IMG/VR virus record: IMGVR_UViG_3300009091_000363
Coordinates: 1-27,198 of that record
Length of the DNA: 27,198 nucleotides
Source: a virus
Strand: one strand, 5' to 3'
The translations under genes were made by a program, and so were the position numbers. Positions 7,246 to 22,202 of the stretch are shown here, piece after piece (the first letter of the stretch is position 1; every line of letters starts with the position of its first letter). The notes below the pieces were generated by a model, which was not told the DNA's origin, searched no databases, and saw only the letters and a list, made by a program, of their open reading frames with translations.

Positions 7246-7772
7246 AATATGTGGATGGAATTAGTAGTTATGAGAGTATAGATAGAATTTATACATATTT
7301 AAAAAATAAAAATAAAAGAAATGCATTTTATTGGATTTTAGGTTATTCATTTGGTTTGAGAGACAGTGATATTCGATCTTTAAAAGTAAAAGATATAAAT
7401 AAAGATATCATAATGTTGATTGAACATAAAAATAATAAACCTATTATTATAAAAAATACAATTAAAAATCAAATTAATGAATATATTAAAAATATGAATG
7501 ATGATGATTATTTATTCCCATCAAGGAAAAAACATATAGTTTCATATATTTCAAGGCAACAAACATATAGGATAATGAAAGATGTACAAATAGCATTGAA
7601 TTTAAAAGAAAACATAGGAACTCATACGTTAAGAAAAACATATGCTAATATAAATTATGATGGTGATATTAAAAAAACAGCTAGATTATTAAATCATTCA
7701 TCAACAAATAATGTTTTAACTTATATAGGAATAAATCCTAAAAAAATTAAGGAGTTGACTATAAATGAATGA
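7242..7772 (+). CDS. Compact tyrosine recombinase (catalytic domain only)
   Basis: A site-specific recombinase of the phage-integrase family, 176 residues long. The full catalytic set is present: Arg40 (GLRDSD), Lys63, His128 and Arg131 (HTLRKT), His152 (LNHSS) and Tyr161 (TYIGI). There is no N-terminal arm-binding or SAM-like core-binding domain, so it is about half the length of a normal integrase and near the size of FimB/FimE-type inversion enzymes. It overlaps the portal gene by 4 bases and the next gene by 8. It is clearly more AT-rich than its neighbours and uses no GCC or GCG alanine codons, which they favour. That points to separate ancestry, but the tight coupling argues for stable residence. 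The target site is not visible. Confidence 0.88.
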   Translation: MKYVDGISSYESIDRIYTYLKNKNKRNAFYWILGYSFGLRDSDIRSLKVKDINKDIIMLIEHKNNKPIIIKNTIKNQINEYIKNMNDDDYLFPSRKKHIVSYISRQQTYRIMKDVQIALNLKENIGTHTLRKTYANINYDGDIKKTARLLNHSSTNNVLTYIGINPKKIKELTINE

Positions 7773-8157
7773 TATAAAATTACCAAAGGAAACCAATGAA
7801 GAATATAAATACAGGTTATTTATAAATGACCTAGTTATCAATGGGATTGGTCCAGCACTAAAAGAAGTTGAAAGGGTGTCATTGGATTTAAACGCCAAAC
7901 CCGACAAATTAATAGATATTTTAAAGCCTGAATTAAAAAACATGGATTGTATTAATATACCTAGAAAATATATTAAAATACATAATTTACTTTGTGAATG
8001 TATCAGGGCTTATATTAAAGGGATAAATTACATGATTGAAGGTAAAACAAAAGCTGATGTTAATGCTTTGTATAAAGCCGGTCAATATATAAAAGAAGGT
8101 AACGCCTGGATGGGTGTTACAAAAACTAGAATGTGGGAGATAATCGATGCAGGATGA
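7765..8157 (+). CDS. Hypothetical head-region protein, 130 aa
   Basis: A helical, soluble 130-residue protein with no recognised family. It starts within the end of the recombinase gene and overlaps the minor capsid gene by 11 bases, so it is probably translated together with the head genes. Position between portal and minor capsid protein suggests a minor head or packaging accessory, but nothing in the sequence proves it. A Cys-containing mid-region (LLCEC) and a C-terminal TRMWEI stretch are its only distinctive features. Confidence 0.6.
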   Translation: MNDIKLPKETNEEYKYRLFINDLVINGIGPALKEVERVSLDLNAKPDKLIDILKPELKNMDCINIPRKYIKIHNLLCECIRAYIKGINYMIEGKTKADVNALYKAGQYIKEGNAWMGVTKTRMWEIIDAG

Positions 8158-9247
8158 TTTAATATACGAGGCTGAGAGTGTTGTATTTGCTATTGGAAAT
8201 ACTTTAGCTTCACAATTAAAATCAAATCTGAATAAAAAAAAGTATGACATGGTAGCAAGAAAAGCCGCTATGGGCTTTGCAATCGGTGGACAAAAATGGA
8301 TTGACAATGATTTGACCGAGGCATATATATCAGGTTTAAAGCGTGTTCCCAAAGGTGGGTCAAAACCCATCAAAAATGGAACATTTTTGGTACATAAAAA
8401 GCCTGATAAAATACCATTATTGCCACGAATAATTGTAGATAAATTCAAAGATTATCCTAATCAAACAAAATTTTACGAAGTCTTCAGGGCCGCGGCTATG
8501 GAGAGTTTAAAAAAACCGACATTGCAGATATTACGGGCGGCCGATGATGTATTTAGACAGGCGTCGATTGAGGTTGGGAGTGTATCATTTCGAGAAAGTG
8601 ATATAGTAACTCGTCGATTGATAAGTCAAAGATTAATGAATAATTACGCCGATCGAGGTTTGCAATGTATTACATATAAAAACGGGGCTAAATATAGCCT
8701 CGATACTTATAGCGAAATGTTAGCCAGGACGTTAATACAAAGGTGTTCTTTACAGGCGTCAATAAATCGGTATTGCGAAAAAGGATGGAATTTAGGGGTC
8801 GTTAGTGCGCATTTCCGCGCTTGTAATTTATGCACGCCATATGAGGGCGTTGTATTAAGTTTAGATGGAATGTCAGACGCTCACGCCTCGATATGGGATG
8901 CTGAAATGCAAGGTCTTTTCCATTCTAATTGTAAACATGATGTTAGTCCTTATTTTGAAGGATTAACAGAGCGAATCATAGCACCTTTGGACCCTGGCGA
9001 AGCGGCATTAGTTAATAAATATGGATATGAGGAAGCTCAGAAAATAGCTTATAAAGCAATGCAACAACAAAGGTATATCGAAAGGCAAATTAGAAAATAT
9101 AAAAGGGAGTCAATGTTCTCTTTGGATGAAGTTAGTCAAAGAAAAGCCGATAAGAAAGTCAAAGACTGGCAAGCTAGACAAAGAGAGCATTTATCAAATA
9201 ATATATATTTACCTCGCAAATATGCGAGAGAAGGAGTAAATTTATGA
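8147..9247 (+). CDS. Minor capsid protein (Phage_min_cap2 / MuF-like)
   Basis: A 366-residue minor head protein, the counterpart of SPP1 gp7, which binds the portal and is present in few copies in the capsid. Family marks lie in the second half: VSAH (219-222), CNLC (226-229), a spacer with SIWDAEMQG, then HSNCKHDVSPYFEG (259-272). The paired Cys and His residues may hold a metal. The C-terminal 80 residues are a basic helical region that could contact DNA. The next gene overlaps its stop by four bases. Confidence 0.82.
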   Translation: MQDDLIYEAESVVFAIGNTLASQLKSNLNKKKYDMVARKAAMGFAIGGQKWIDNDLTEAYISGLKRVPKGGSKPIKNGTFLVHKKPDKIPLLPRIIVDKFKDYPNQTKFYEVFRAAAMESLKKPTLQILRAADDVFRQASIEVGSVSFRESDIVTRRLISQRLMNNYADRGLQCITYKNGAKYSLDTYSEMLARTLIQRCSLQASINRYCEKGWNLGVVSAHFRACNLCTPYEGVVLSLDGMSDAHASIWDAEMQGLFHSNCKHDVSPYFEGLTERIIAPLDPGEAALVNKYGYEEAQKIAYKAMQQQRYIERQIRKYKRESMFSLDEVSQRKADKKVKDWQARQREHLSNNIYLPRKYAREGVNL

Positions 9248-10014
9248 AAAAAATAATAGTTTTAACTATGATAATCTGTTTAACATTATCAATGGGAAGC
9301 TATGGCTATACTAATTTAAACGATGACCATTTTGTAAAATCCGGTAATGTATGTGTTGCATATCATTATCACAATGGTGTTAATGCCGGATGGGAAGTAA
9401 TATTTAATAAATATGTATTGTGGGATGATAGGGAAACATTAAAACCAATTACCCCCAATGACGACAAAGGAACCTGGACAAAATATGATAAGACTTATAA
9501 AGTGAAGTTAACCGATGCGAAACCTAGATATCCCGATGGATTAATATGGGGCTACTGTGTAAAAGTTGACGGAATAAAAGTCACTAAAGGCCAATCTATT
9601 AGTACAAAGGGTTTAACTTGTAAAATTGAAGTAATTGGAAAAGATCAAGGAGGACAAACAATTTACAAGGGATCATGTGATGATGGAATATTAAATGAAA
9701 CTGGCTTTAGTACAATAAATGTTGTTTGTTCAAGTGATGAAAAAAGAAACCCACCTCTATTTTATGTTTTCGATTTCAAGACTTGTCATGAAATTATCTT
9801 TGATGATTCATATACACCATTGACACCTATACCAAGCCCAACCGACACCATAAGTCCATCGGTAACCGATATCCCCACGGATGCGCCAACTAATAATGGT
9901 AATACACTTCCAAAAACTGGAGAATCTAATAATATGACATTGCCTATTTTAGGTTTAATTATAGTTATTGCCGGGGCTGGTTTGGGTGTGTTTAAATTGA
10001 AACATAGAAATTAA
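9244..10014 (+). CDS. LPXTG cell-wall-anchored surface protein
   Basis: A 256-residue exported protein. It has a signal peptide (MKK, then a hydrophobic core to about residue 18), an extracellular domain with several Cys, a Pro/Thr/Ser-rich stalk (about 195-219) and a complete sorting signal: LPKTGE (222-227), a hydrophobic segment (about 233-250) and the basic tail KLKHRN. Host sortase would cut after Thr and link the protein to peptidoglycan. The extracellular domain is not recognised. Such a gene among head genes is unusual. It shares ATGA overlap with the minor capsid gene and ends before a strong terminator, so it should be made with late genes. A role in blocking adsorption or changing the host surface is inference. 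Confidence 0.85.
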   Translation: MKKIIVLTMIICLTLSMGSYGYTNLNDDHFVKSGNVCVAYHYHNGVNAGWEVIFNKYVLWDDRETLKPITPNDDKGTWTKYDKTYKVKLTDAKPRYPDGLIWGYCVKVDGIKVTKGQSISTKGLTCKIEVIGKDQGGQTIYKGSCDDGILNETGFSTINVVCSSDEKRNPPLFYVFDFKTCHEIIFDDSYTPLTPIPSPTDTISPSVTDIPTDAPTNNGNTLPKTGESNNMTLPILGLIIVIAGAGLGVFKLKHRN

Positions 10015-10025
10015 ATTTTAATATC

Positions 10026-10055
10026 AAAACCCCATTTATTAATGGGGTTTTTTTT
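10026..10055 (+). terminator. Strong intrinsic terminator
   Basis: AAAACCCCATT (10026-10036) pairs perfectly with AATGGGGTTTT (10041-10051) around a TATT loop, followed by more T to 10055. It sits just after the LPXTG gene and just before the sugar cassette. It would end or reduce transcription of the packaging and portal operon and separates it from the glycan genes. The A-run on the left makes it potentially bidirectional. Confidence 0.9.
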
Positions 10056-10067
10056 AATATGTTTTTA

Positions 10068-10076
10068 TGGTATATT
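10068..10076 (+). promoter_or_regulatory. Possible extended -10 promoter of the glycan cassette
   Basis: TGG directly followed by TATATT gives an extended -10 element between the terminator and the first cassette gene. No good -35 box is visible 17 bases upstream, where there is only a T-run. A start here would give a short leader with the ribosome binding site ACGGAGG (10095-10101). The location is right for a cassette promoter, but the match is modest. Confidence 0.4.
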
Positions 10077-10106
10077 GTTATAAAGTTATTAAATACGGAG
10101 GTTACG

Positions 10107-11078
10107 ATGTTAAATAAAAAATGGTTAATTGTTGGTGGGACCGGGTCATTTGGTCAAGAAATTATAAAACAAATCTTTGAAAAATATGAACCTAAAAAAA
10201 TCTATGTTTATTCCAGGGACGAATATAAGCAACATTTAATGAATAATAAATTTAAAAAAGATCCTTCAGAACTCCAATTTTTTATTGGTGATGTAAGGGA
10301 CTTAGAACGTCTTAAGATGGCCACGGATGGCATTGACTATATAATTCATACCGCGGCTTTAAAACATGTACCATCTTGCGAATATAATCCATTTGAGGCT
10401 ATCAAAACAAATGTTTTAGGAAGCCAAAATGTAATCCAGGCGGCACTTTATAATAATGTAAAAAAAGTAATTGCATTATCTACTGATAAGGCCGTGAATC
10501 CAATGAATTTATATGGTGCTACTAAACTTTGCATGGAAAAACTAATTATAGGTGGGAATGCCTATGTTGGAAATAAGGATATTAAATTTTCGATATGTAG
10601 ATATGGGAATGTTATTGGTTCTCGTGGGTCTGTAGTGCAAACTTTCAAGAAACAAAGGCGTGTAGGTACTATTTCGATAACAAATCCTGAAATGACGCGT
10701 TTTTGGATTAGCTTAAAAAATGCCGCTGAATTTGTATTAAATTCTTTGGGTGTCATGCAAGGCGGGGAAATCTTTGTGCCAAAGATGCCGTCAATGAAAA
10801 TTACGGATTTGGCCGAGTGTATCGCCCCTGATGCTCTGATAAAAGTTATTGGGGTAAGGCCTGGCGAGAAAATCCATGAAATGTTGATTGCAAAAGATGA
10901 TCGAATTTTAATGGAAGCTAAGAATTTCTATATTATTGAGAATAATTATCACTGGAATAATAAAGGCCCTTATGATTATGATTGTGAAGAAATAGAAAAC
11001 TTTGATTATACATCGAACACCAATGATAAATGGTTAACAGTCGAAGAAATGCGAGGATTATTAAATGATATCTTATAG
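10107..11078 (+). CDS. pseB: UDP-GlcNAc 4,6-dehydratase, inverting (PseB-like)
   Basis: This enzyme converts UDP-GlcNAc to UDP-2-acetamido-2,6-dideoxy-L-arabino-hexos-4-ulose, the first step to pseudaminic acid. It has the NAD(P) motif GGTGSFG (10-16) and the dehydratase signature with Asp127, Lys128 and Tyr136. Their spacing is the same as the catalytic Asp, Lys and Tyr of Helicobacter FlaA1. RPGEKIHE follows in the last third, also typical. At 323 residues it has normal length. I chose the ATG at 10107 because ACGGAGG lies just before it; an upstream Met at 10059 would sit in the terminator trailer. It overlaps the next gene by 14 bases and opens the glycan cassette. Confidence 0.9.
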   Translation: MLNKKWLIVGGTGSFGQEIIKQIFEKYEPKKIYVYSRDEYKQHLMNNKFKKDPSELQFFIGDVRDLERLKMATDGIDYIIHTAALKHVPSCEYNPFEAIKTNVLGSQNVIQAALYNNVKKVIALSTDKAVNPMNLYGATKLCMEKLIIGGNAYVGNKDIKFSICRYGNVIGSRGSVVQTFKKQRRVGTISITNPEMTRFWISLKNAAEFVLNSLGVMQGGEIFVPKMPSMKITDLAECIAPDALIKVIGVRPGEKIHEMLIAKDDRILMEAKNFYIIENNYHWNNKGPYDYDCEEIENFDYTSNTNDKWLTVEEMRGLLNDIL

Positions 11079-12081
11079 TAGGCAAGCAATAAACGATGAT
11101 GATGTAAAAGCGATTAGTGAAGTATTAAAAGATGATTTCTTAACTACAGGCCCTAAGATTGAAGAGTTTGAACAAGCTCTTTGTAATTATTCGGGTTCTA
11201 AATTTTGCAGGGTGTTAAGTTCAGGCACGGCGGCGTTACACGCGGCTATGTTCGCAATTGATCTAAAACCAGGCGACGAGGTAATTATTCCTACAATGAC
11301 TTTTGTGGCCACTGCAAATTGTGTAAGATATATGCATGGAACAGTCGTTCTATGTGACGTCGATGACAGTCTATGCATTGATCCTGAAAAAATTGAGAAT
11401 TTAATTACCCCGAAGACGAAGGCTGTTATTTGTGTAGATTATGCCGGTCAAGCCTGTAATTATCCACGAATAAAGGATATATGCGGCTTACATAATTTAT
11501 TCTTGATATCGGATGCTTGTCATAGTATGCAAGTAGACCCAAGGGCTGATATAACATGTTTTAGTTTTCATCCAGTTAAACATATAACTACTGGCGAAGG
11601 TGGGGCATGTCTCACAGATCACTATATATTTAATTTAATGATACAATCATTTAGAAATCATGGTAGAGTTGATAATAACACGACACACCTTGGATATAAC
11701 TATAGAATGAATGATATTCAAGCGGCTTTAGGGATATCTCAATTAAAAAGGATTAAACAGAAGTTGAATGAAAGATCGAAGATTGCTAAGAAATATGATG
11801 AACATTTTGAAACAATTGAACATAAACGGCAACATACATATCATTTATATGTAATCAAGGTTGATAACCGTGATGTTGTAATGGGATACTTGAAATACAA
11901 GGGAATAGGGTGTCAGATACATTACAAACCTATCTATGATTTACACTATTACGAAGGCTTAAGGGGTAATTTTGAGAATACCGAAAAATTAAAAGATAAA
12001 ATTCTTAGTATTCCTTTATATCCTGGTCTATCTGAGAATGAACAAGAATACATTATAAGGGAGATAAAACAATGGAAATAA
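11065..12081 (+). CDS. pseC: PLP-dependent sugar aminotransferase (PseC-like, DegT family)
   Basis: This enzyme would transfer an amino group to C4 of the PseB product. It starts ISYSRQAINDDDVKA and DFLTTGP, close to PseC proteins. Cofactor residues are visible: Asp150 in ISDACHS and the Schiff-base Lys172 in SFHPVKHITTGEGG. The length of 338 residues is a little short for the family, mainly because the loop between the Asp and the Lys is trimmed. Trimming recurs elsewhere in this cassette. It overlaps PseB and the NeuB-like gene, so the three are probably made together. Confidence 0.88.
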   Translation: MISYSRQAINDDDVKAISEVLKDDFLTTGPKIEEFEQALCNYSGSKFCRVLSSGTAALHAAMFAIDLKPGDEVIIPTMTFVATANCVRYMHGTVVLCDVDDSLCIDPEKIENLITPKTKAVICVDYAGQACNYPRIKDICGLHNLFLISDACHSMQVDPRADITCFSFHPVKHITTGEGGACLTDHYIFNLMIQSFRNHGRVDNNTTHLGYNYRMNDIQAALGISQLKRIKQKLNERSKIAKKYDEHFETIEHKRQHTYHLYVIKVDNRDVVMGYLKYKGIGCQIHYKPIYDLHYYEGLRGNFENTEKLKDKILSIPLYPGLSENEQEYIIREIKQWK

Positions 12082-12692
12082 TATTGGATTTTGGCTCTGG
12101 AAATACTTCCCAGAACGATTTAAAATATATTAAAAAAATGTATGATGAATTGAAAAAAGTTGATAATGGAAAACATAAGATAATCGTTAAATGGCAACTT
12201 TTCAAAGATGATGGAATTAATATCCCATTGAATCCTAACTCATTTAATTATGCCTATAATTATGGGCGTCAACTAGGTTATGAAGTGACAAGTTCGGTTA
12301 ATGACATAGAATCAATGAAATATCTAACTCAATTTGATATCCCTTTTGTAAAAATATCAAATAACCATGCTAGATATTTTTTAATTGATTTAATACCCCC
12401 TAAATTCAAGGTGTATGTATCGGGTATCTTTATGAATCCAAGACCTAACATGGTGGTATTTAATTGTATAAGTAAATATCCGGCCAGTGTTGAGGATTAC
12501 GAAAATAAATTTGATTATTTTGAGAATATCAGTGATCACACGGATAATTTTGAATTATATAAAAAATATAAACCAAAACGCATTGAATGGCATTATAGAT
12601 TATTGGATTCGACCGGGCTTGATTCTGGTAGTTTTGCCAGGACGCCCGAACAATTACAGGAGGTGATTTTTAGTGAAAACAATATTGATTGA
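12072..12692 (+). CDS. Compact NeuB/PseI-like nonulosonate synthase
   Basis: NeuB-family enzymes condense PEP with an amino sugar to make sialic-acid-like nonulosonates such as pseudaminic acid. Landmarks are present in the right order: IVKWQ (38-42), TSS (73-75), VKIS (93-96), NCISKYP (131-137), SDHT (154-157) and IEWHY (171-175). His156 and His174 would be the metal-binding pair. At 206 residues it is far shorter than the usual 340-350. The C-terminal SAF (antifreeze-like) domain is absent and the barrel is trimmed. It overlaps both neighbours and shows no frameshift, so it is an intact short form rather than debris. Whether it works alone is unknown. Confidence 0.75.
   Translation: MEIILDFGSGNTSQNDLKYIKKMYDELKKVDNGKHKIIVKWQLFKDDGINIPLNPNSFNYAYNYGRQLGYEVTSSVNDIESMKYLTQFDIPFVKISNNHARYFLIDLIPPKFKVYVSGIFMNPRPNMVVFNCISKYPASVEDYENKFDYFENISDHTDNFELYKKYKPKRIEWHYRLLDSTGLDSGSFARTPEQLQEVIFSENNID
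12658..12667 (+). promoter_or_regulatory. Near-perfect Shine-Dalgarno deciding a GTG start
   Basis: AGGAGGTGAT is complementary to the 3' end of 16S rRNA over its whole length and lies five bases before the GTG at 12673. It supports GTG as the true start of the HAD gene inside the end of the NeuB-like gene and predicts strong translation. Confidence 0.8.
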
Positions 12693-13017
12693 TTTCGACG
12701 GGGTAATACATACTTATAAATCAGGATGGAAAGGGATTGAAATTATCCCTGATGGTCCAGTCTCTGGAATCAAAGAAATGATTGACGAATTGAGAGAACA
12801 AGATTATATTGTGACGGTTTTTTCAACTCGATGTTGTGAGGAAAAAGGAATCGAAGCAATGAAAGGCTGGTTAAACCAATATAAAATAAAGGTTGATGGG
12901 TTTACCGCGGTTAAAGTACCGGCTTACCTTACAATTGACGATAGGGCAATATGTTTCAATGGTGACCCTGGGAAAACATTGGAAGAAATAAGGAGGTTTA
13001 AGACATGGCAGAATTAG
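12673..13017 (+). CDS. Small HAD-superfamily hydrolase
   Basis: A 114-residue HAD-fold protein with motif I LIDFDGVIH (4-12; nucleophile Asp7, acid Asp9), a motif II-like VTVFSTR (47-53) and an acidic motif near the end (LTIDDRAI). It lacks a cap domain and is as small as phage-type phosphatases. It could dephosphorylate a sugar phosphate made by the neighbouring synthase, as Neu5Ac-9-phosphate phosphatase does elsewhere, or stand in for a missing step of the pathway. Both ideas are inference. The GTG start is supported by a near-perfect ribosome binding site, and it overlaps the genes on both sides. Confidence 0.72.
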   Translation: MKTILIDFDGVIHTYKSGWKGIEIIPDGPVSGIKEMIDELREQDYIVTVFSTRCCEEKGIEAMKGWLNQYKIKVDGFTAVKVPAYLTIDDRAICFNGDPGKTLEEIRRFKTWQN

Positions 13018-13190
13018 ACTTAAGTGGATTTTTAGAAACTATTGAAAATAGTATTACTGAGGAATTTAAAAAACGATATGCTGAATTAATCAAAGCGGCC
13101 GAAGATCAAAAAGAATATCAACGAGGCCTATATAATGGATTAGAATTGGCATGTAGCATAATTCAAAAAAGGGAGGCCGTTTATAAATGA
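13005..13190 (+). CDS. Small hypothetical protein, 61 aa
   Basis: A 61-residue acidic, helical protein, probably a coiled coil, with no recognised domain. It overlaps the HAD gene by 13 bases and the cytidylyltransferase by 4 bases (ATGA), so it is part of the cassette and likely expressed. It could be a small partner protein of one of its neighbours. GGAGG at 12991-12995 precedes its start. Confidence 0.6.
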   Translation: MAELDLSGFLETIENSITEEFKKRYAELIKAAEDQKEYQRGLYNGLELACSIIQKREAVYK

Positions 13191-13816
13191 ATTTTTTATG
13201 TATAATCGCGGCTCGAATGACATCTTCCAGATTTCCCGGTAAATGTATGAAAGAAATATGTGGTATTCCTATGACGGAATGGGTTTTAAGAGCGGCCAAT
13301 AAAAGTTTATATATCGACAAGGCCGTTATTGGAATTACTAATGAAGTTAGTAATATCCCTATTAAAAATTATTTTAAATCTGAGGATGTCGAGGAAATAG
13401 AATGTAAATCTGAGGATGTATTGAGTCGGTTTTATCATATTGCGTGTAAATATGAGTCTAAAAATATTGTAAGGATAACAAGTGATTGTCCACTTTTATA
13501 TTTTTATCCAGACATCATTGACACAACTATAGCCTCCCATATTGTAAAACAAAATGATTACACATGGAACAGGGGTAATTTTGGGACTTGTTCGGGTCTT
13601 GATGTTGAAGTGTTTACATTTAATACTTTAATAAAAACATATGACAAAGCCACCGGGTCGGATCGGGAACATGTTTGCCCTTATATGCGAAATCACGATA
13701 AATTTAAATTTGGTGAAGTTACTTTTTATGACGTTTTTAATCAAAAATGGTCCGTGGATACTTTAGACGATCTTGAAAAAATCCAGGATGCATTTAATTT
13801 TTTAAGGAGAAAATGA
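13187..13816 (+). CDS. CMP-nonulosonate cytidylyltransferase (SpsF/PseF-like)
   Basis: This 209-residue nucleotidyltransferase would activate the nonulosonate with CTP. It shows the SpsF-type signature: IIAARMTSSRFPGK (6-19) at the nucleotide site, then SEDVLSR, VRITSDCPLL, GLDVEVF, SDREHVCPY and WSVDTLDD in order. SpsF proteins occur in Bacillus and clostridial pathways for spore-coat and flagellar sugars. The substrate is probably the product of the NeuB-like enzyme upstream. Length and motif order are normal for the family. The next gene starts one base after its stop. Confidence 0.82.
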   Translation: MNFLCIIAARMTSSRFPGKCMKEICGIPMTEWVLRAANKSLYIDKAVIGITNEVSNIPIKNYFKSEDVEEIECKSEDVLSRFYHIACKYESKNIVRITSDCPLLYFYPDIIDTTIASHIVKQNDYTWNRGNFGTCSGLDVEVFTFNTLIKTYDKATGSDREHVCPYMRNHDKFKFGEVTFYDVFNQKWSVDTLDDLEKIQDAFNFLRRK

Positions 13817-13817
13817 A

Positions 13818-14390
13818 ATGAGATATCAAGAGGAATTATGGAAAGGGAAGTTAGGGGATAATTACACTGATGATAACGACCGGGAAAGATATGTTCAATA
13901 TAAAATCGATATATTCAGGGGTATTTTAGATAAAAAATTTAATATAAACAGTGTACTTGAATATGGGGCGAATATAGGCCTAAATATTCCCGCGATTAAA
14001 CAATGTTGTCCTAAAGCCACATACTATGGTGTAGAAATAAACAAAAAGGCCTATGATAAACTAAAAAGATCATGTACGGCCTGGAATCAATCTATATTTG
14101 ATAAATTAGATCTTAAAGCCGATTTAGTATTTACATATGGCTTACTTATTCATATATCCCCTGATGATTTAAACGAGGCCTACAAGGTTTTATATGAGCA
14201 TAGCAATAAATATATATTACTTATAGAACACATCAGTAAACACCCTTTTACAGTCGTATATCGTGAAAGGGAAAACGCCTTTTTTAAAGGTGATTTCATA
14301 AATGATTTTCAAAAATTGTACAATTTAAAAATGATAAAATCTGGAAAAGTCAGGGGCGATTTAATATGGGCGTTACTCTCGAAGTCTTAA
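13818..14390 (+). CDS. Pseudaminic-acid-associated methylase-like SAM methyltransferase
   Basis: A 190-residue class I methyltransferase. It begins with QEELWKGKLGDNY, as do methylases found in pseudaminic acid clusters, and has the SAM-site strand VLEYGANIGLNI (46-57), close to the ELGxNxGxN form of that group. GLLIHISPDD follows in mid-protein. It may methylate the sugar or a late intermediate; the exact target of this family is not settled. It has one base of space from the cytidylyltransferase and overlaps the acetyltransferase by 25 bases. Confidence 0.72.
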   Translation: MRYQEELWKGKLGDNYTDDNDRERYVQYKIDIFRGILDKKFNINSVLEYGANIGLNIPAIKQCCPKATYYGVEINKKAYDKLKRSCTAWNQSIFDKLDLKADLVFTYGLLIHISPDDLNEAYKVLYEHSNKYILLIEHISKHPFTVVYRERENAFFKGDFINDFQKLYNLKMIKSGKVRGDLIWALLSKS

Positions 14391-14869
14391 ACAAAGAGGA
14401 TTTAGAGTATATCAGAATTGAGAAAAATAAAATTAAGGGAAGTTGGAGAACTCCATTTTTATTAACTAGAGAAATGCAAGAAAATTATTATAATGATGTT
14501 GTATCTAATAGAAATTCTAATAATAGGATATTTGGAATTTGTGCCGATGGAAAATTAGTAGGAACGACCGGGATTTCACACATAGAATGGGAAAATAGAC
14601 TTGGAGAAATAACCATGTTTGTAATACAAACCGGTAAAGGTTACGGAAAAGAGGCATTAAAATTAATCCTGGATTATGCTTTTGACGAATTGAATTTAGA
14701 AAATGTATATGGTGAATGCTATGAATGCAACAATTCAATTGATTTTTGGAAAAAAATGAATCCATCATATATGACAATTTTACCGGCCCGGAAATATTAC
14801 GGTGGATATTATTGGAGTTCCTTGTATTTCAGTTTTAACAAGGAGGGTTACAATGAAAATAATGATTAG
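14366..14869 (+). CDS. GNAT N-acetyltransferase (PseH-like)
   Basis: A 167-residue GNAT-fold protein with the acetyl-CoA pyrophosphate loop QTGKGYGKEA (88-97), a preceding GEITMFV strand and a C-terminal W-K-K-M helix. In the pseudaminic acid route PseH acetylates the 4-amino group made by PseC, and that is the likeliest role here. Other amino-sugar acyltransferases are possible. It sits between the methylase and an ATP-grasp gene and overlaps both reading frames at the edges. Length is normal for single-domain PseH. Confidence 0.75.
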   Translation: MGVTLEVLNKEDLEYIRIEKNKIKGSWRTPFLLTREMQENYYNDVVSNRNSNNRIFGICADGKLVGTTGISHIEWENRLGEITMFVIQTGKGYGKEALKLILDYAFDELNLENVYGECYECNNSIDFWKKMNPSYMTILPARKYYGGYYWSSLYFSFNKEGYNENND

Positions 14870-15701
14870 TGCCGTGGGTGGAAGTGTTGCCATAAGCTAT
14901 ATACAGCACTTACAAAAGTTAGGTCATTATGTCATTGGTATTGATATGAATGATGATATTCCAGGTAAACATTATTGTGATGAATTTCACAAGGTGGACC
15001 CGTGCCATATTCGTTATATCACCGATATTGATTATGATCTATTTTTTCCTTTCATTGATGAAGAATTACTTTTATGCATGAATGATAAAAGGATAATTCA
15101 ATGTGATCATGAAACAAATATGACATGTATAAATAAACATTTTTTATATCAATATTGTATATCCCATGATATTAAGGTACCGGCTTTAAGTAGTGTAATG
15201 GATAAATACGGATTTGTTAGGGGTATTTATTCAAGAGGGTCCAAAGAGGCCTTTTTAACAACCGATTTTAGACAATATATGTTGAGTGGTAAATACATAG
15301 TCCAGAAGTTTATTCAAGGTATAGAGTATACCATAGATTGTTTGGTGAATCTAAATGGTGAATTTATATTTTGTGTACCCAGGAAACGAGTAAATTTTAC
15401 TAATGTTTCCCTGCAGGGCGAAATTGATATGAGGCAGGATCTAATTGATTTTACAAAAGATATTGTAAGTAAAATAAAATTTAAAGGTCCTATTAATATT
15501 CAGGTTATAGTTAGAGATAATGAAATTTACCTCATAGAAATAAATCCTAGATTAGCGGGGTCGGCTATATTTAGTATTATGGCGGGGTTTGATATTATAA
15601 AGGATTCAATAGATATTTGGTCCGGGAATTATTATAAATCAGATTATAATATCCAAGATAAAAAGAAAGTGTATAGGTATTTAACGGAATGGTCGGATTA
15701 G
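14853..15701 (+). CDS. ATP-grasp ligase (carbamoyl-phosphate-synthase-like)
   Basis: A 282-residue protein of the ATP-grasp fold, whose members join a carboxylate to an amine or similar group using ATP. The N-terminal pre-ATP domain begins MKIMISAVGGSVAISYIQ. IVQKFIQGIEYTID and the metal-site strand EINPRLAGSA in the last part are typical of the fold. Such genes occur in polysaccharide clusters and may attach an amino acid or other acid to a sugar amine. AGGAGGG lies just before the ATG at 14853, so I prefer it to a start at 14802. It overlaps the following HAD gene by 13 bases. Confidence 0.78.
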   Translation: MKIMISAVGGSVAISYIQHLQKLGHYVIGIDMNDDIPGKHYCDEFHKVDPCHIRYITDIDYDLFFPFIDEELLLCMNDKRIIQCDHETNMTCINKHFLYQYCISHDIKVPALSSVMDKYGFVRGIYSRGSKEAFLTTDFRQYMLSGKYIVQKFIQGIEYTIDCLVNLNGEFIFCVPRKRVNFTNVSLQGEIDMRQDLIDFTKDIVSKIKFKGPINIQVIVRDNEIYLIEINPRLAGSAIFSIMAGFDIIKDSIDIWSGNYYKSDYNIQDKKKVYRYLTEWSD

Positions 15702-16210
15702 TATTTGATTTGGATGATACCTTGTATGATTCAAAACAATTTGTATTTGCAGGGTTTGAAGAAATTTGCAAAAAAATATCTGTGGAGATGCTTAAAAATT
15801 TTTATGATATTGACCCTAATAAAGTTATGCATAGATTTGGTAATTCTATTTATAGAGGTATTAAACCTAAATTGACTTTGTATCCTTGGGTAAATCCGTT
15901 ATTTAAAATTTTAACTTGCCCAGTAGGACTGATAACAAACGGTGACAAGGAAACACAAAATAATAAAATTGATATTTTAGGGATTCGTAAATATTTTGAT
16001 CATATTATAATTTTAGATGATCCTAAATTTTATAAACCTAATCCGTCGTCATTACAAATAATGTCAGACGTGTTAAAAATAGATAAAGCGTGTTATGTTG
16101 GCGATAGAGAAAGCGATAAAAAATTTGCTGAAAATGCCGACGCCTATTTTATTGATGTAAAGGAGGATAAATTCATTGAACGTATTATGTATTGTTGCCC
16201 ACCCCGATGA
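15689..16210 (+). CDS. HAD-superfamily phosphatase
   Basis: A 173-residue HAD hydrolase with all four motifs: FDLDDTLYDS (6-15), LITNGD in the middle, KPNPS (Lys motif) and YVGDRESD near the end. A short helical cap is inserted after motif I. Likely substrate is a phosphorylated sugar or intermediate. It overlaps the ATP-grasp gene at its start and the PIG-L gene at its end, so the three appear coupled. It is larger than and not closely similar to the HAD protein at 12673. Confidence 0.8.
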   Translation: MVGLVFDLDDTLYDSKQFVFAGFEEICKKISVEMLKNFYDIDPNKVMHRFGNSIYRGIKPKLTLYPWVNPLFKILTCPVGLITNGDKETQNNKIDILGIRKYFDHIIILDDPKFYKPNPSSLQIMSDVLKIDKACYVGDRESDKKFAENADAYFIDVKEDKFIERIMYCCPPR

Positions 16211-16796
16211 TGAAATTTTGGGATGCGGTGGAACACTTAGTAAACATGTTGAAAATGGTGATAACGTATTAGTTGTTATAATGTCCACCGGCGGCCGTGA
16301 AGTTGATTTAAAAACTGAGGCGTCCTTAGCTTCAAAGATTATTGGGTATAACTTATCTTTTGAAAATTACCCCGATCAGGGTTTTGATGGTGTGCCTATT
16401 TTGGATATTATACAAAATATTGAACAATATATAAAAGTGTATAAACCAGAGATCATTTATACACATAGCAACCATGATTTAAATAAAGATCATAGGCTTA
16501 TATTTGAGGCCGTGTTGACAGCGGCAAGGCCTTGTAATTCTCATTTAGTTAAGCAAATATACAGTTTTGAAATATTATCCAGTACAGAATGGGGGTTTAC
16601 ATCGTTTAAGCCTCAAATGTTTGTTGAAATTGATATTGATAAAAAATTATTAGCAATGGATTGTTATAAAAGCGAATTAAGGGGTTATCCACACCCTCGA
16701 AGTTGGCAAATTATAAAAGAGAAAGCGTCGGTAAATGGTAGTATAGTATTAAAAAATTATTGTGAAACTTTTGAAATAGTAAGGGTGATAAAATAA
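16176..16796 (+). CDS. PIG-L/LmbE family sugar N-deacetylase
   Basis: Zinc-dependent deacetylase that removes N-acetyl groups from amino sugars. AHPDDE (8-13) near the start is the family hallmark, and a second zinc-site motif, HSNHDLNKDHR, follows in mid-protein. Its 206 residues are normal length. It starts at TTG (16176), justified by AAGGAGG (16160-16166) nine bases upstream. A TTG start could also lower expression. It overlaps the HAD gene. In this context it may deacetylate a diacetamido sugar to free an amine for the ATP-grasp ligase or another acyl group. Confidence 0.85.
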   Translation: MNVLCIVAHPDDEILGCGGTLSKHVENGDNVLVVIMSTGGREVDLKTEASLASKIIGYNLSFENYPDQGFDGVPILDIIQNIEQYIKVYKPEIIYTHSNHDLNKDHRLIFEAVLTAARPCNSHLVKQIYSFEILSSTEWGFTSFKPQMFVEIDIDKKLLAMDCYKSELRGYPHPRSWQIIKEKASVNGSIVLKNYCETFEIVRVIK

Positions 16797-16797
16797 A

Positions 16798-18048
16798 ATG
16801 AACATATTAATTTTAGGGGATCATAAATTTATAGCTGAAGCAGGAAGAACTATAAAAGATCATAAATTATTTTGTATAGTTGGGGATAGATTGACATTAC
16901 CCCTTAAAAAGAAGCTTTTACAAATTAATAAAAATATGACTTTACATCCCCATAAAAAGTTGAAGAATTTTAATTTCTTTAGAACTGTAGACTGGACCAA
17001 AGTAACACCGTTAGATCAATATACAATTGAAGGTATGAGAGATTGTGAAAGCGAAGTTATGAAAATGTATGAACGTATCAAATCCATTAAGCCAAATGAC
17101 AGCTTTGACACACGTAAAAGTCATTATTTGGCCTGTTTACGTTATTGGTCGTATTATTTAGCAGTAAATAAAATTGATGTCTTCTTGGCGGCTTTTGTAC
17201 CTCATATGGGGTATGATTATGTTATTTATAATCTGTGTAAGTTTAAGGGGATCAAGACATTTACCAATTATTTTTTATTCCCTGATTGGGGTTATTTTAT
17301 TGAATCAATTAAAGATCCAATGGCAGGCTTTGAGCCTCTTTATGGTAATTTTAAATATCCCCGATTAAAGAGCATATTTGAAGAATATTTAAATAATAAG
17401 CCTTTAAGTTATAAACCTATTACCATTCCCAATGTCCCTCGTGTCGTTGAATTTCAAAAAAAAGTAAGGATCATGTATAAGGATTTATTTGATTTTTATA
17501 AATCATGTTGTAAAAAGTTTGATATTAGTAAGCCTTTTATTTACGTGCCATTGCATTATCAATATGAAGCTTCAACATGTCCATTAGGGGGAGTCTTCGT
17601 TGATCAATTGTTAATGATTGAAATTCTTAGCTTCACGGGTTATACAATTTACGTCAAGGAACACCCTCACATGTCAAAGAATCGATCAATAGCTTATTAT
17701 AACAGGCTTACAAAAATGCGGAATGTTCATTTAATACCAGTGGAAACTAACCATTACACATTGATTGATAAGGCTTTTGCTGTGGCTACCGTAACAGGGA
17801 CCGCCGGATGGGAGACAATTTTGAAAGGAAAATGTTGTTTATTGTTTGGTAATATTTATTATCAATATTTACCCGGTTGTTTTTCTGTTGGATCATATCC
17901 GGATGTAATGCGAGCCATTCAAGAAATTAGAAGTTTTAAATTTGATAAGGAAAAAGTAGAGGCATATTTAAAGGGTTTAGAGCCATTTTTACATCCTTTA
18001 AATTATAATTCTATGATACTTAAATTCAAAGAAAGGATAGGAATTTAA
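16798..18048 (+). CDS. KpsC/KpsS-like capsule glycosyltransferase
   Basis: A 416-residue protein resembling the capsule polysaccharide biosynthesis family (PF05159) to which beta-Kdo transferases KpsC and KpsS belong. Its second half holds FIYVPLHYQYEAS, YVKEHPHMSK and VATVTGTAGWETILKGK, the conserved substrate and nucleotide-site segments of this fold. Family members use CMP-activated sugars, so CMP-pseudaminic acid or a relative is the natural donor here. No signal peptide or membrane segment is seen, so it would act on the cytoplasmic face. It abuts the next gene with no gap. Confidence 0.75.
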   Translation: MNILILGDHKFIAEAGRTIKDHKLFCIVGDRLTLPLKKKLLQINKNMTLHPHKKLKNFNFFRTVDWTKVTPLDQYTIEGMRDCESEVMKMYERIKSIKPNDSFDTRKSHYLACLRYWSYYLAVNKIDVFLAAFVPHMGYDYVIYNLCKFKGIKTFTNYFLFPDWGYFIESIKDPMAGFEPLYGNFKYPRLKSIFEEYLNNKPLSYKPITIPNVPRVVEFQKKVRIMYKDLFDFYKSCCKKFDISKPFIYVPLHYQYEASTCPLGGVFVDQLLMIEILSFTGYTIYVKEHPHMSKNRSIAYYNRLTKMRNVHLIPVETNHYTLIDKAFAVATVTGTAGWETILKGKCCLLFGNIYYQYLPGCFSVGSYPDVMRAIQEIRSFKFDKEKVEAYLKGLEPFLHPLNYNSMILKFKERIGI

Positions 18049-18885
18049 ATGGTTAAATTAAACAAATATGGTTACTATGAATTAACCAATATGCCCAGTG
18101 AAGAAGAATTAAATTATTATTATTCAACCTATTACCAGGATAATAAAAGCGCTTCTTACAAACAAGAATATACACAATTGGAAAAGGATTTTTTTAAGGC
18201 TAAATTACAACAAAAACACATGTTATGTGGATCATTCACAAGTTTTTTGGATGTTGGTTGCGGCGAAGGATTCGCTTTAAAATATTTCCACGATAAAGGG
18301 TATACCGTCAAAGGCATTGATTACAGTGATGCAGGATTATTAAAACATAATCCAGATATGAAGGGGTTTATTGATATTGGTAATATTTTTGATATCCTAG
18401 AACATATGACAGAAAAGTTTGACATTGTTAATCTTGATAATGTTTTGGAACATGTAAGAGAGCCCAGGAAACTTTTAGAAAAATGCATCGAAGTGTGTTC
18501 TAAAAAGATTATTATCAAAGTACCAAATGACTTTTCGTATTTTCAAAGGTATGTTATGGGGATTCGAAAAGTTGAAAAAAATTATTGGGTAGTTACCCCG
18601 GATCATATTAATTATTTTAATAAAGATGGTTTAATTAATTTATGTAAGGCTGTAGGCCTTGAAAAAGAATTTATTTTAGGTAATTATTTAACTGAATTTT
18701 ATGCCTTACATAAAGATACTAACTACTTAGAAACACCGAGTTTGGGACGGGAATGTCACTTTGCTCGATGTCATGAAGAAGTTTTATTTAATAAGATAGG
18801 TATTAAAGAAACAATAGAATTGTACAAGGTCTATGGAAAAATGGGTCTTGGAAGAGAAATTATAGGAGGTTTTACAAAATGTTAA
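18049..18885 (+). CDS. SAM-dependent methyltransferase, class I
   Basis: A 278-residue methyltransferase with the SAM motif LDVGCGEG (67-74), GIDYSD following it and NVLEHVREP in mid-protein. The layout is that of small-molecule or sugar methyltransferases of the Methyltransf_23 type. The N-terminal YYSTYYQ region is typical of those in polysaccharide clusters. It could methylate a sugar hydroxyl or a chain end. The C-terminal 80 residues have no recognised domain. It overlaps the following methyltransferase by seven bases. Confidence 0.82.
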   Translation: MVKLNKYGYYELTNMPSEEELNYYYSTYYQDNKSASYKQEYTQLEKDFFKAKLQQKHMLCGSFTSFLDVGCGEGFALKYFHDKGYTVKGIDYSDAGLLKHNPDMKGFIDIGNIFDILEHMTEKFDIVNLDNVLEHVREPRKLLEKCIEVCSKKIIIKVPNDFSYFQRYVMGIRKVEKNYWVVTPDHINYFNKDGLINLCKAVGLEKEFILGNYLTEFYALHKDTNYLETPSLGRECHFARCHEEVLFNKIGIKETIELYKVYGKMGLGREIIGGFTKC

Positions 18886-19484
18886 AAGAATATTTAGGAA
18901 TTGATCATACTAGAAATGGGTGGCTTGAAAGTCAAGAATTAAGCCATGATTTTTGGAGAAATCCAGATTCAACAAATCAGCCTGAAGAATATGCAAAATA
19001 TGAAGATAGATCCGCGTATATATTAAAACAATTTAGAGATTTTGATATTAAACATGATGCAAAAATATTAGAAATAGGATGTAATTGTGGCCGTAATTTA
19101 AACTATTTAGAAGGTGCCGGATATAAAAATTTAACTGGTATAGAAATTAATGAGGACGCCATAGAATTTGGCAAAAACTTTTATAAAAATGATAACTATA
19201 AAGTAATTAATAGCCCAGTTGAAAATATTATTGAAGGCCTTGGCGACTTTGATTTAATATTTACTTGTGCCGTATTAATGCATATCCACCCACAACAAGC
19301 CGATTATGTTTTTAGTACTATGAGAAAATTAGCTAATAAGATAATAATAATTGAGGACACTTTAGTAAACAGAGATTACAAGGCTATATTTGAGCAAGAT
19401 GGCTTAATGTTAATAAGAGAAGAATTAACTAAATATTTTATTCCGTGTCCAACTAAAATGGTAACTCAGGTATTCGTCAAATGA
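18879..19484 (+). CDS. SAM-dependent methyltransferase, Pse-methylase-like
   Basis: A 201-residue class I methyltransferase with ILEIGCNCGRNL (63-74) and VLMHIHPQQ in mid-protein. Both segments resemble those of the methylase at 13818 (EYGANIGLNI and LLIHISPDD), so the two may be distant paralogues. It lies directly after another methyltransferase and overlaps both neighbours. Its target is unknown; methylation of a sugar or chain terminus is plausible. Length is compact, with no additional domain. Confidence 0.8.
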   Translation: MLKEYLGIDHTRNGWLESQELSHDFWRNPDSTNQPEEYAKYEDRSAYILKQFRDFDIKHDAKILEIGCNCGRNLNYLEGAGYKNLTGIEINEDAIEFGKNFYKNDNYKVINSPVENIIEGLGDFDLIFTCAVLMHIHPQQADYVFSTMRKLANKIIIIEDTLVNRDYKAIFEQDGLMLIREELTKYFIPCPTKMVTQVFVK

Positions 19485-20155
19485 TTGACGTAATTTATTT
19501 ATGTGCAGGGGTTGGCAAACGCGCCAACCTCGGTTATCCTAAGCAATTTTTAAGTTTGCACGGCAAACCATTATTAATACACGGATTAGAAACATTAAGA
19601 AGGATAAAAGAAATAGGGGAAATTATTATTCCTTGCCCTGAAGAAAACCGACAAAAAATATTGAAGGCTTGTTTTAACTACAATATTGATCATGTGATTG
19701 TATGCCAAGGCGGTGATACTCGTCAAGATTCTAGTTATCTAGGTTTAAGCGAAGTTGTTACTGATGAAGTATTAATTTGTGAAGCAGTTAGGCCTTTTAT
19801 GAGTTTAAATTTAATTAAAAAAGTTCTGGATTGCGAAAATGAATTTGTAGTACCAATTAGCCAAATGTACGCCTCGGTAATAGATTGTTGTGGAAATAGT
19901 TTTGACAGGAATACCATTGGACCCGTTCAAATGCCACAAAAATATAATACCCAACTATTGAATCACGGACATGTTAAGGCTAGAGTGAATGAAAAATTTG
20001 ATTATACAGACGACGCCGCTTTAATCATTAATGAATTAGGGTTAATCCCTAAAATTGTAAAGGGTGATGATGTAAATATTAAGATAACGACCCCTCTTGA
20101 TGTTTACATTGCTGAAGCTATTTATAAATATTTACAAGGAGAAAAACAAGAATGA
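19481..20155 (+). CDS. IspD/TarI-like cytidylyltransferase
   Basis: This 224-residue enzyme would make a CDP-activated polyol phosphate from CTP. It has the IspD-family N-terminus CAGVGKRANLGYPKQ (8-22), a mid-protein QGGDTRQDSSYLG and a C-terminal NIKITTPLD. In the family TarI makes CDP-ribitol for teichoic acids and IspD makes CDP-methylerythritol for isoprenoids. The following gene encodes an SDR reductase, a pairing found fused in Haemophilus Bcs1, which makes CDP-ribitol. That makes CDP-ribitol, or another polyol, the best guess here. It overlaps both neighbours by four bases. Confidence 0.82.
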   Translation: MIDVIYLCAGVGKRANLGYPKQFLSLHGKPLLIHGLETLRRIKEIGEIIIPCPEENRQKILKACFNYNIDHVIVCQGGDTRQDSSYLGLSEVVTDEVLICEAVRPFMSLNLIKKVLDCENEFVVPISQMYASVIDCCGNSFDRNTIGPVQMPQKYNTQLLNHGHVKARVNEKFDYTDDAALIINELGLIPKIVKGDDVNIKITTPLDVYIAEAIYKYLQGEKQE

Positions 20156-20769
20156 AATCAATAATTATTACAGGATCAAATAGGGGATTAGGTAAAGAAG
20201 TAGCGAGAGAATCAAGTAAAAGGGGTTATTTTTATTATCCAATTTGTAGGTGGAACGATATAGATGTTACCGACTATGAGGCATTGAGTAATTTTTATAA
20301 AGAAATGGAATTACCCGAAGCGCTTATAAACAATGCCGGGATTTATAAAGGTGGATCTATATTAGAAATGAATGTCCAGGACTGGCAAGAAGTTATCAAT
20401 GTAAATCTAAATGGGATTTTTAATAATTCAAAGCTATATGCTGAATTGTGTATAAAAAATAAAATTCCAGGTAAAATTATTAATATTGCTTCGACTGCCG
20501 GGTTAGGTGCTAGGCCTGGACGGTCAGCCTATGCGGCTAGTAAAGCCGCGGTTATAAATTTAAGTTTAAGCCTATCCGAGGAATTAAAAGGATATGGGAT
20601 AAAAGTTTTTTGTTTATGTCCAGGTGCTTTTAATTCAGATATGAGGCGTCAAATTGCCCCCGACGACGATTTTGATAATATGCTAAAGCCTTCGTTCTTA
20701 GCTTCGTTCATCATGGATTTAGTAGAAGACGGAAAATTTTTAGATAGCCAGGTGGTGAAATTATGTTAG
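20152..20769 (+). CDS. Short-chain dehydrogenase/reductase (Bcs1 reductase-domain-like)
   Basis: A 205-residue NAD(P)-dependent oxidoreductase. It shows the cofactor motif TGSNRGLG (7-14), NNAG (60-63), catalytic Ser114, Tyr127 and Lys131 (YAASK), and CPGAFNSD after it. In Haemophilus Bcs1 a similar domain reduces ribulose 5-phosphate to ribitol 5-phosphate before the cytidylyl transfer by the fused IspD domain. Coupled ATGA overlap with the IspD-like gene supports that pairing. It is slightly shorter than typical SDRs (about 250). Substrate is inferred from context. Confidence 0.82.
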   Translation: MKSIIITGSNRGLGKEVARESSKRGYFYYPICRWNDIDVTDYEALSNFYKEMELPEALINNAGIYKGGSILEMNVQDWQEVINVNLNGIFNNSKLYAELCIKNKIPGKIINIASTAGLGARPGRSAYAASKAAVINLSLSLSEELKGYGIKVFCLCPGAFNSDMRRQIAPDDDFDNMLKPSFLASFIMDLVEDGKFLDSQVVKLC

Positions 20770-21893
20770 TTAACGTTATGAATAAAGCTCACTTTGATAT
20801 TTGTGTAGGTCAATGGACATTTAGACCTTACGAAGAAATAATAATAAATGTTGGGCCTATGGATTTCGATTTTAAAATGATACGAGCTAATCCTAATTTA
20901 AGAGTAGGAAAATTAAACAATGCACAGTATATTAAGAAACATAAATTATATTTGGGTAGTAAATTTAATTTTGCCTACGACGATAACGATGTAAATATTG
21001 GATTTGCCTATAAATACGCCATTGAAGCACTAGCGGACCCGATAATTAAACATTTACCACAAGAAGACACGGGATATCATAGTCGTCCTGTTCCCGGTAA
21101 AGGAGGTAAGGGATTAAATTGTAGGTTTTTTTCAAGTCTACGAATTAATCAACAAGGTAAAACCCCGGTTGGACCTCGTGACGTTTTTATAAGTCATGGA
21201 ATCGGTGATAAAAACTATTGGATAGGACCTAACATCCAAGATTATAAATACGCATTTTGCCCGGGTCCTGCCTGGGAAAACAGAATGAGAAAAACCGGGT
21301 ACAAAGGGGCAATTTTTCAAGTTGGGTATACTAAACTTGATCCACTTTTTAATGGTGAATATGTGAAAAATTCCACGGATAAAATAGTTGTGGCGTGGTT
21401 ACCTACACATGGATATAACAACAAGCATCGGGGACGATCTAGTTTTCCTATGTTTACCCGTTTTATAAATCAGATATCTAAAGATTATCAGTTTGTTGAT
21501 GGTATGCATCCAACGACAAAATTACATAATAAAGAAAAGAATTACCCTACTATGCAATTATTGATTGATGCTGATGTTGTCATTGCTGACGCGGGTAGTA
21601 CAGTATATGAAGCGTGGGCCTTGGGTAAACCTGTGATATTCCCTGATTGGATTTGTAAAGATGATGTCTTAGGACATTTTAAGACAGATAAGAATAACTT
21701 GGAATATATTATTTATGATAAATCTATTGGGTATCATGCTAATAACATGAAAGAGTTAAATAAAATGATTGAAATCGCGGCAAGCGATGGAATGCAACAA
21801 CCAGAAATAGAATTAATGGAAAATATCTTTCCACAAAAATTGAGAGGTAAGAGCGGTGAGGTTGCCGCCAAGGTTTTAAATGAACTCTATTAA
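20763..21893 (+). CDS. TagB/TagF-like polyol-phosphate transferase
   Basis: A 376-residue protein whose C-terminal half resembles CDP-glycerol/ribitol phosphotransferases of teichoic acid synthesis. WLPTHGYNNKHRG, the DGMHPTTKLH segment and DADVVIADAGSTVYEAW match the conserved GT-B nucleotide-site region of TagF, TarF and TarL. The donor could be the CDP-polyol made by the two preceding genes. No membrane segment is visible; the known enzymes are peripheral membrane proteins. The N-terminal 150 residues are not recognised. It overlaps the SDR gene and the following Rha-like gene. Confidence 0.65.
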   Translation: MLVNVMNKAHFDICVGQWTFRPYEEIIINVGPMDFDFKMIRANPNLRVGKLNNAQYIKKHKLYLGSKFNFAYDDNDVNIGFAYKYAIEALADPIIKHLPQEDTGYHSRPVPGKGGKGLNCRFFSSLRINQQGKTPVGPRDVFISHGIGDKNYWIGPNIQDYKYAFCPGPAWENRMRKTGYKGAIFQVGYTKLDPLFNGEYVKNSTDKIVVAWLPTHGYNNKHRGRSSFPMFTRFINQISKDYQFVDGMHPTTKLHNKEKNYPTMQLLIDADVVIADAGSTVYEAWALGKPVIFPDWICKDDVLGHFKTDKNNLEYIIYDKSIGYHANNMKELNKMIEIAASDGMQQPEIELMENIFPQKLRGKSGEVAAKVLNELY

Positions 21894-22143
21894 ATTGGCC
21901 GAAAAATTAAATATGTCCCATTTTTCAATTTATCGAATTATATGTTTACATAGAATTTACTTTGAAGAATTAGGGCCGATTAAAGAAAAAAAGTTATTGC
22001 CAGGTAAAAACACTAAAGGGGGTCGGCCTATAATCTTTGTTAAGCATTTAAATCAACTTCAAATTAACTTCTTGATAAGTTTACTTAAGAATACCCCGGA
22101 AACCTGTAAATTAAAATTTAAAACAATTAAATCTATGTTATAA
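21880..22143 (+). CDS. Rha-like phage regulatory DNA-binding protein
   Basis: An 87-residue protein resembling the N-terminal Rha (pRha) domain of phage regulators. An LAEKLNMSHFSIYR helix-turn-helix segment is followed by FEELGPI, then GGRPIIFV and a helix with LNQLQINFLISLLKNT. It lacks any C-terminal domain. It overlaps the TagF-like gene by 14 bases, so it is co-expressed with the cassette. It lies just before the promoter at 22154 and could regulate it, which is inference from position. Confidence 0.55.
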   Translation: MNSIKLAEKLNMSHFSIYRIICLHRIYFEELGPIKEKKLLPGKNTKGGRPIIFVKHLNQLQINFLISLLKNTPETCKLKFKTIKSML

Positions 22144-22182: not shown

Positions 22183-22202
22183 AAATGGAAGAGGTATTAA
22201 AA

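Follow-up and report, generated by a model that had tools for sequence, protein, structure and literature searches.

Conserved putative polyol-phosphate genes and exchangeable sugar modules beside the capsid genes of a phage clade: a possible route to virion glycosylation

The cassette and its flanks

The IMG/VR virus record IMGVR_UViG_3300009091_000363 (27,198 bases; "the window" below means this whole stretch) holds a cassette of glycan-synthesis genes among the genes for the phage head, which we compare here with its counterparts, or islands, in related phages. ORF recovery in the window gives 17 open reading frames (ORFs), C01 to C17, spanning 10107-21893 on the + strand, with 13 of the 16 junctions between them overlapping and a gap of at most 1 bp at each of the remaining three (Table 1). 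Matches to PHROGs identify TerL, portal and minor head genes on the upstream flank, where the minor-head gene and an LPXTG gene occupy 8147-10014, and scaffold (at 22185) and major capsid protein (MCP, at 22834) genes on the downstream flank; the GC content of the cassette is continuous with that of the flanking DNA. An initial annotation of this DNA had described a mostly overlapping, 17-gene + strand cassette of sugar enzymes between minor-capsid/LPXTG and scaffold genes. The ORFs and the PHROG flanks agree with that description, and the enzyme families that it named are confirmed by Pfam and NCBIfam, with a TarL/TagF-fold transferase lying below the Pfam cut-offs. Its placement of the cassette inside the head operon stands on the downstream side, where no evident terminator precedes scaffold and MCP, but not on the upstream side: the clear terminator there, whose hairpin is kept in the relative L059 with paired changes on both sides, sets the upstream head genes apart and leaves the cassette continuous with scaffold/MCP alone. 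The 87-aa ORF at that junction has no Pfam or PHROG match.

The whole or nearly whole block is found in the same order in the IMG/VR contigs 2721755344_000001 (which begins at PseC and so carries the block from PseC on), 3300027792_000211 and 3300009082_000324, with 90-99% protein identity for all but the 61-aa C05. This shared order in independent contigs rules out an assembly chimera, raised in the initial annotation as a possible join with host DNA. Decayed remnants, the other misgiving raised there, are also ruled out, since relatives carry intact genes and frames are intact across the clade except in L100. In the latter, C17 is split over two frames (9788-11139), as a result of a frameshift, an assembly error or decay.

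Table 1. Features of the cassette and its borders in the window
Feature	Position	Strand	Evidence
Intrinsic terminator directly upstream of cassette	10026..10051	+	11-pair stem + T tract
C01 PseB, UDP-GlcNAc 4,6-dehydratase (inverting)	10107..11078	+	TIGR03589 433.7 bits vs cut-off 407.75
C02 PseC-like DegT aminotransferase	11065..12081	+	PF01041 9e-99
C03 compact NeuB/PseI-like ulosonate synthase	12072..12692	+	PF03102 25.6 bits vs cut-off 22.1
C04 small HAD-like protein	12673..13017	+	phrog_1238, phrog_23773
C05 61-aa ORF	13005..13190	+	conserved at 97% in L059, 52% in L058
C06 SpsF/NeuA-type cytidylyltransferase	13187..13816	+	PF02348 (CTP_transf_3) 2.8e-21
C07 methyltransferase	13818..14390	+	PF08242 1.5e-4, under Pfam cut-off
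C08 GNAT N-acetyltransferase	14366..14869	+	PF13302 1e-12
C09 ATP-grasp ligase	14850..15701	+	PF15632 8.6e-21
C10 HAD phosphatase	15689..16210	+	PF13419 6.5e-19
C11 PIG-L deacetylase	16176..16796	+	PF02585 1.2e-23
C12 Capsule_synth/KpsC-like transferase, candidate CMP-ulosonate transferase	16798..18048	+	PF05159 over cut-off
C13 methyltransferase	18049..18885	+	PF13489 4.8e-14
C14 methyltransferase	18879..19484	+	PF13649 4e-10
C15 IspD-like CDP-polyol cytidylyltransferase	19481..20155	+	PF01128 1.7e-37
C16 SDR reductase, proposed polyol-phosphate forming	20152..20769	+	PF00106 2.8e-38
C17 TarL/TagF-fold polyol-phosphotransferase	20763..21893	+	AF2 pLDDT 91.5, Foldseek
C17 N-terminal domain, residues 1-74	20763..20984	+	folds alone at pLDDT 90.5
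87-aa ORF overlapping C17, links cassette to scaffold/MCP	21880..22143	+	conserved in many relatives

A trio of genes is constant across the clade

Phages for comparison were chosen by their MCP alone, and the presence of C17 was judged by profile search. C17 is present in 17 of 17 contigs that have an MCP at least 64% identical to that of the window and DNA that reaches the region (L008 and L017, too short to judge, are left out), and in none of 36 contigs with an MCP at most 59% identical, of which many are short and 14 include about 10 kb upstream of the MCP gene. A search with C17 itself adds further contigs; not counting the window, about 34 distinct contigs have both MCP and C17. C17 occurs in all 31 clade members judged, IspD in 14/14 large phage contigs and the SDR in 27 of 28 tabulated relatives, and the three genes are consecutive in nearly all contigs with both MCP and C17. 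Their identity matrices correlate with that of MCP roughly as closely as the matrices for the rest of the head genes do, which indicates that the trio has been inherited as part of the core. Just outside the clade, the interval from minor head to scaffold in L022 (MCP 59% identical) is compact and free of sugar genes. Among cultured phages, the nearest by MCP, which include Bacillota phages, do not exceed 49.5% identity, and in Acutalibacter phage Fontainebleau this interval contains just two small genes. Between C17 and scaffold, most of 18 relatives have a Toprim-domain protein of ~350 aa (L090 11594-12670 and 17 other loci), which is absent from the window.

The top PDB matches of the C17 model in Foldseek are Staphylococcus aureus TarL with CDP-ribitol (8va1) and TagF (3l7j), with E-values of 3e-9 to 5e-9, though with a TM-score of about 0.5. 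A sequence search of C17 against PDB found no match; PF04464 gives 14.8 bits against a cut-off of 22.1, and no Pfam or NCBIfam cut-off is passed, with a bacterial C17 relative in L066 passing that of PF04464 (23.3). H145 (in SHG) and H249 (in HP), invariant in 38 sequences, may be the counterparts of the TagF catalytic histidines. Bacterial C17 homologues align from residue 75 or later and thus lack the N-terminal domain, for which searches of Pfam, PDB sequences and Foldseek returned nothing significant, and which is in no other ORF among the sequences collected.

C15 and C16 form an IspD-type cytidylyltransferase and reductase pair, adjacent, overlapping and kept across the clade; we take IspD plus SDR to be the domain pair of Bcs1. 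In Bcs1, ribulose-5-phosphate is reduced and then activated to CDP-ribitol (PMC10299916). Taken together, the TarL/TagF match of C17 and this Bcs1-like pair make a CDP-polyol a likely donor for C17, and the trio very probably makes and transfers polyol phosphate. That the polyol is ribitol would be a guess, because C15 falls below the cut-offs of both the ribitol-5-phosphate cytidylyltransferase model NF001183 (94.7 vs 166) and the ispD model TIGR00453 (141.3 vs 181.3).

The sugar modules are exchangeable

The initial annotation had proposed to look for the cassette at the same head locus in other genomes. An island is indeed present there in almost every relative; by sequence comparison, however, only C15-C17 are constant, and C01-C14 are one of several exchangeable modules. 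In 14 of the 28 tabulated relatives the module has NeuB, SpsF and GNAT genes, with PseB and PseC also seen in 13 of these 14. Each of the 14 phages has exactly one transferase, either of the C12 type (KpsC-like) or resembling GT29 sialyltransferases (Pfam 1.4e-9; PDB profile E 0.0018). Twelve other relatives carry a DXD glycosyltransferase, often together with pyruvyltransferase, GT2, MurB-like, nitroreductase or FrhB-like genes. Both modules are missing from L094 and L097, the latter having a different glycosyltransferase. The two modules are never mixed within one phage, although in L082 a GT29-like domain is fused to a DXD domain.

Replacement within a module can be followed at the nucleotide level. 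Between L079 on the one hand and L078, L098 and L080 on the other, the DNA is 88-98% identical on both sides of the stretch from GNAT to IspD, which itself is 2.3 kb in L078 (formyltransferase, PIG-L and GT29-like genes) versus an unrelated 1.3 kb with a C12-like gene. The breakpoints are sharp and coincide in L079, at 7336 and 8652-8664. The flanks of the phages that exchanged 2.3 kb for 1.3 kb in situ are 92-98% identical, and the phages with such swaps are ~92-97% identical elsewhere. By analogy, this allelic swapping resembles the change of capsule or O-antigen type in bacteria. A tyrosine recombinase gene lies between SDR and C17 in L076/G008 (L076 9159-9986, G008 12529-13002), the one phage whose island is outside the head operon, and such recombinases may help to move sugar modules.

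In the window, the module recalls the pseudaminic acid pathway (PseB-PseC-PseH-PseG-PseI-PseF), with a true PseB alongside PseC-like, GNAT, NeuB-like and CMP-transferase-like enzymes. A ribosome-binding site precedes the C01 start at 10107, within a longer ORF that opens at 10059. PseC (TIGR03588) is the best model for C02 but scores 336.5 against a cut-off of 423.5, and the PseF model also scores below its cut-off. C03 is a short NeuB-like barrel without a SAF domain; its PF03102 match is marginal, its family profile matches pseudaminic acid synthase 8h2c (E 1.5e-4), and the family motifs KWQ, SDHT and EWH are invariant. No candidate for the UDP-sugar hydrolase PseG was found among the cassette genes of the window or of the sampled relatives. 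The host may supply the PseG step, or the product may be a sugar other than pseudaminic acid. The near-complete route to two activated sugars seen by the initial annotation is therefore overstated for the CMP-sugar branch, and pseudaminic acid is not established as the product of that branch from these sequences. CMP-activated ulosonates are the donors for KpsC-type as well as GT29-type transferases, which fits the accompanying SpsF and NeuB-like genes; the C12 family profile matches KpsC 6mgb (E 7e-6, PDB profile search). Among the smaller genes, C04 is seen only in close relatives of the window, and C05 has no Pfam match.

Homologues outside the clade, host hints and neighbouring genes

Other phage lineages also hold C17. 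In L101 the order is MCP, glycosyltransferase, IspD, C17, small protein and head-tail connector, and in L106-L113 it is TerL, C17, usually SDR, and then, further on, portal and head morphogenesis. The tree separates these lineages from the main clade, with L106/L107 grouping with bacterial homologues; L106-L113 are a separate high-GC phage group. Thermobifida phage P1312 is the only cultured phage found with C17, which there lies beyond the tail genes. No NeuB-like relative was found in cultured phages, and their IspD matches are mostly unannotated short records that resemble host carry-over. In L066, from a Syntrophomonas metagenome-assembled genome (MAG), a gene for a collagen-like protein (3-2160) lies shortly upstream of the C17 homologue, which is compatible with a glycoprotein acceptor and a role in bacterial surface glycoproteins.

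As to the host, the LPXTG gene of the window suggests a Gram-positive one, and a variable surface moron. L062 is a MAG contig labelled Spirochaetes, which is not conclusive as to host; no second copy was found among 9 genomes of the class of this MAG. Elsewhere in the head region, a 176-aa tyrosine-recombinase catalytic domain (phrog_216) at 7242-7772 of the window, between portal and minor head genes, is 99% identical in L059 and absent from most clade genomes. The minor head protein of L088 (2478-5051) apparently contains an intein, part of which is homing-nuclease-like; motifs of the Hint type are visible by eye after HPNC. That of L105 (3603-5450) has an extra C-terminal domain of ~200 aa, possibly a MuF-type effector.

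What the island may decorate

The gene content of the island, its conservation and its modular swapping are shown at the level of sequence. On this basis we propose, with a probability of roughly 0.6, that the island serves to attach a glycan, linked through polyol phosphate and switchable in type, to the proteins of the phage's own virion, in the cytoplasm and late in infection. In the manner of Bcs1, C16 and C15 would convert a keto-pentose phosphate of the host into a CDP-polyol resembling CDP-ribitol, and C17, guided by its N-terminal domain, would transfer polyol phosphate to a capsid-associated acceptor. The upstream module would make a CMP-ulosonate-type sugar; C12 would add this sugar, and the enzymes for methylation, acetylation and deacetylation would trim it. 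In this scheme the trio would be a constant linker, and the module, replaced by recombination, would set the glycan type of each phage. More tentatively, the island could be a "serotype locus", in which the constant polyol-phosphate linker anchors an exchangeable capsid glycan, ulosonate or pyruvylated, and type is switched by recombination.

The virion as acceptor is the best single reading, on indirect evidence. The cassette is contiguous with scaffold and MCP, other lineages hold C17 beside MCP or between TerL and portal, and C17 of the clade begins with an N-terminal domain that bacterial homologues lack. In a hydropathy scan of the islands, no sugar gene has two or more transmembrane segments, and all products look soluble. 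Lysogeny recombinases are few in the large contigs (tyrosine in 2/14, serine in 0/14, of records not certified as complete), which gives little sign of lysogenic conversion. The link to virions or late infection drawn by the initial annotation thus gains support, with decoration itself still a proposal. A 625-aa protein of L088 (6022-7899), which adjoins the trio and has many SGSGVG-type repeats, could be a head fibre and the glycan acceptor.

Several observations count against virion decoration. In L076/G008 the intact island is found outside the head operon, beyond the tape measure gene and on the other strand, with an ordinary gap of ~1 kb between minor capsid and scaffold, so the unit can work away from the head operon, although this placement also shows that it is kept together. 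The terminator ahead of the cassette means that the cassette may have its own promoter. The N-terminal domain of C17 weakly and non-significantly resembles the phage FluMu_N/YqbF domains (best E-values: 0.07 for the viral library and 1.9 for PDB), and the breadth of the IspD and SDR families leaves CDP-ribitol as one of several possible products. Finally, bacterial C17 homologues are in surface-glycan loci, with glycosyltransferases, rhamnose genes and polyol dehydrogenase.

This last point, together with the TarL/TagF fold of C17 and the Gram-positive host suggested by the neighbouring LPXTG gene, speaks for the main rival, remodelling of the host envelope late in infection. A wall polymer or teichoic-acid-like addition, made via host lipid carriers and flippases, would block superinfection or adsorption to debris. 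We consider this unlikely, although it is the most serious alternative: no island has a flippase, a GtrA/B-like or a polyprenyl-phosphate membrane enzyme, integrases are few, the island usually adjoins scaffold and MCP, and the N-terminal domain of C17 is found in phages only. A separate reading with far lower odds places the acceptor on the surface of the infected cell, in the form of a phage-encoded protein such as the LPXTG protein (9244-10014), which has a signal peptide and a wall anchor, is encoded in the head operon and lies directly upstream of the cassette. This gene is seen only in the window and in L059, whose copy keeps signal and anchor with the central domain deleted, and it is separated from the cassette by the terminator, whereas the trio is clade-wide.

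The soluble enzymes of the island would also suit hypermodification of phage DNA, for which there is a precedent in Bacillus phage SP-15: its CDP-glycerol glycerophosphotransferase lies, as here, with glycosyltransferases, in a cluster of 10 carbohydrate genes to which base hypermodification has been ascribed (PMC5977210). Unlike SP-15, the clade lacks base-making enzymes, with a thymidylate-synthase-family enzyme, the source of the hydroxymethyl or dihydroxypentyl base in phages of this kind, in 0/14 large contigs and positive controls, and its islands are usually with head genes rather than replication genes; we regard this explanation as improbable, and it is disfavoured along with lysogenic conversion. 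It is hardly credible that host genes are hitch-hiking here, or that the assembly is chimeric, with no function in the phage, despite the host-like enzyme families and the one MAG-derived contig (L062). The relatives refute this: their genes are intact over 40-60% protein divergence, they number about 35 contigs, alleles have been swapped, and the unit has been relocated as a whole.

Relation to known systems and significance

Components of the proposed virion decoration have parallels in systems already described. In mycobacteriophages, a few phage glycosyltransferases reportedly draw on host sugar donors. Glycosylation of mycobacteriophage virions by phage glycosyltransferases has been reported (Freeman et al. 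2023, as cited in PMC12691614). Phage-encoded transferases are thus common to both, but virion glycosylation, reported there, is a proposal here, and the island has in addition the polyol-phosphate trio and an exchangeable module for making sugars de novo. With the TarL/TagF and Bcs1 systems of teichoic acid and the Haemophilus influenzae capsule, the trio shares its fold and the pairing of IspD with SDR; it differs in that its genes are separate, that it has the additional phage N-terminal domain and that it scores below the Pfam and NCBIfam cut-offs, and the island lacks wall or capsule export genes. A swappable glycan type is shared with serotype conversion by prophages (gtrABC-type), but the island has no membrane flippase or membrane transferase, and integrases are few. 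In the literature searched, of which our coverage is partial, we found no description of a head operon that combines interchangeable sugar modules with a polyol-phosphate linker.

If our proposal is true, some phages synthesise a surface glycan all the way from activated sugars of their own making, and diversify it as bacteria do their capsules. Phage surface chemistry would then be a genetically readable and evolving trait, with a bearing on adsorption and environmental stability. C17 would be a polyol-phosphate transferase that acts on protein assemblies, outside the dystroglycan pathway of animals, and its N-terminal domain, in combination with IspD-SDR, would serve as a marker for finding such phages.

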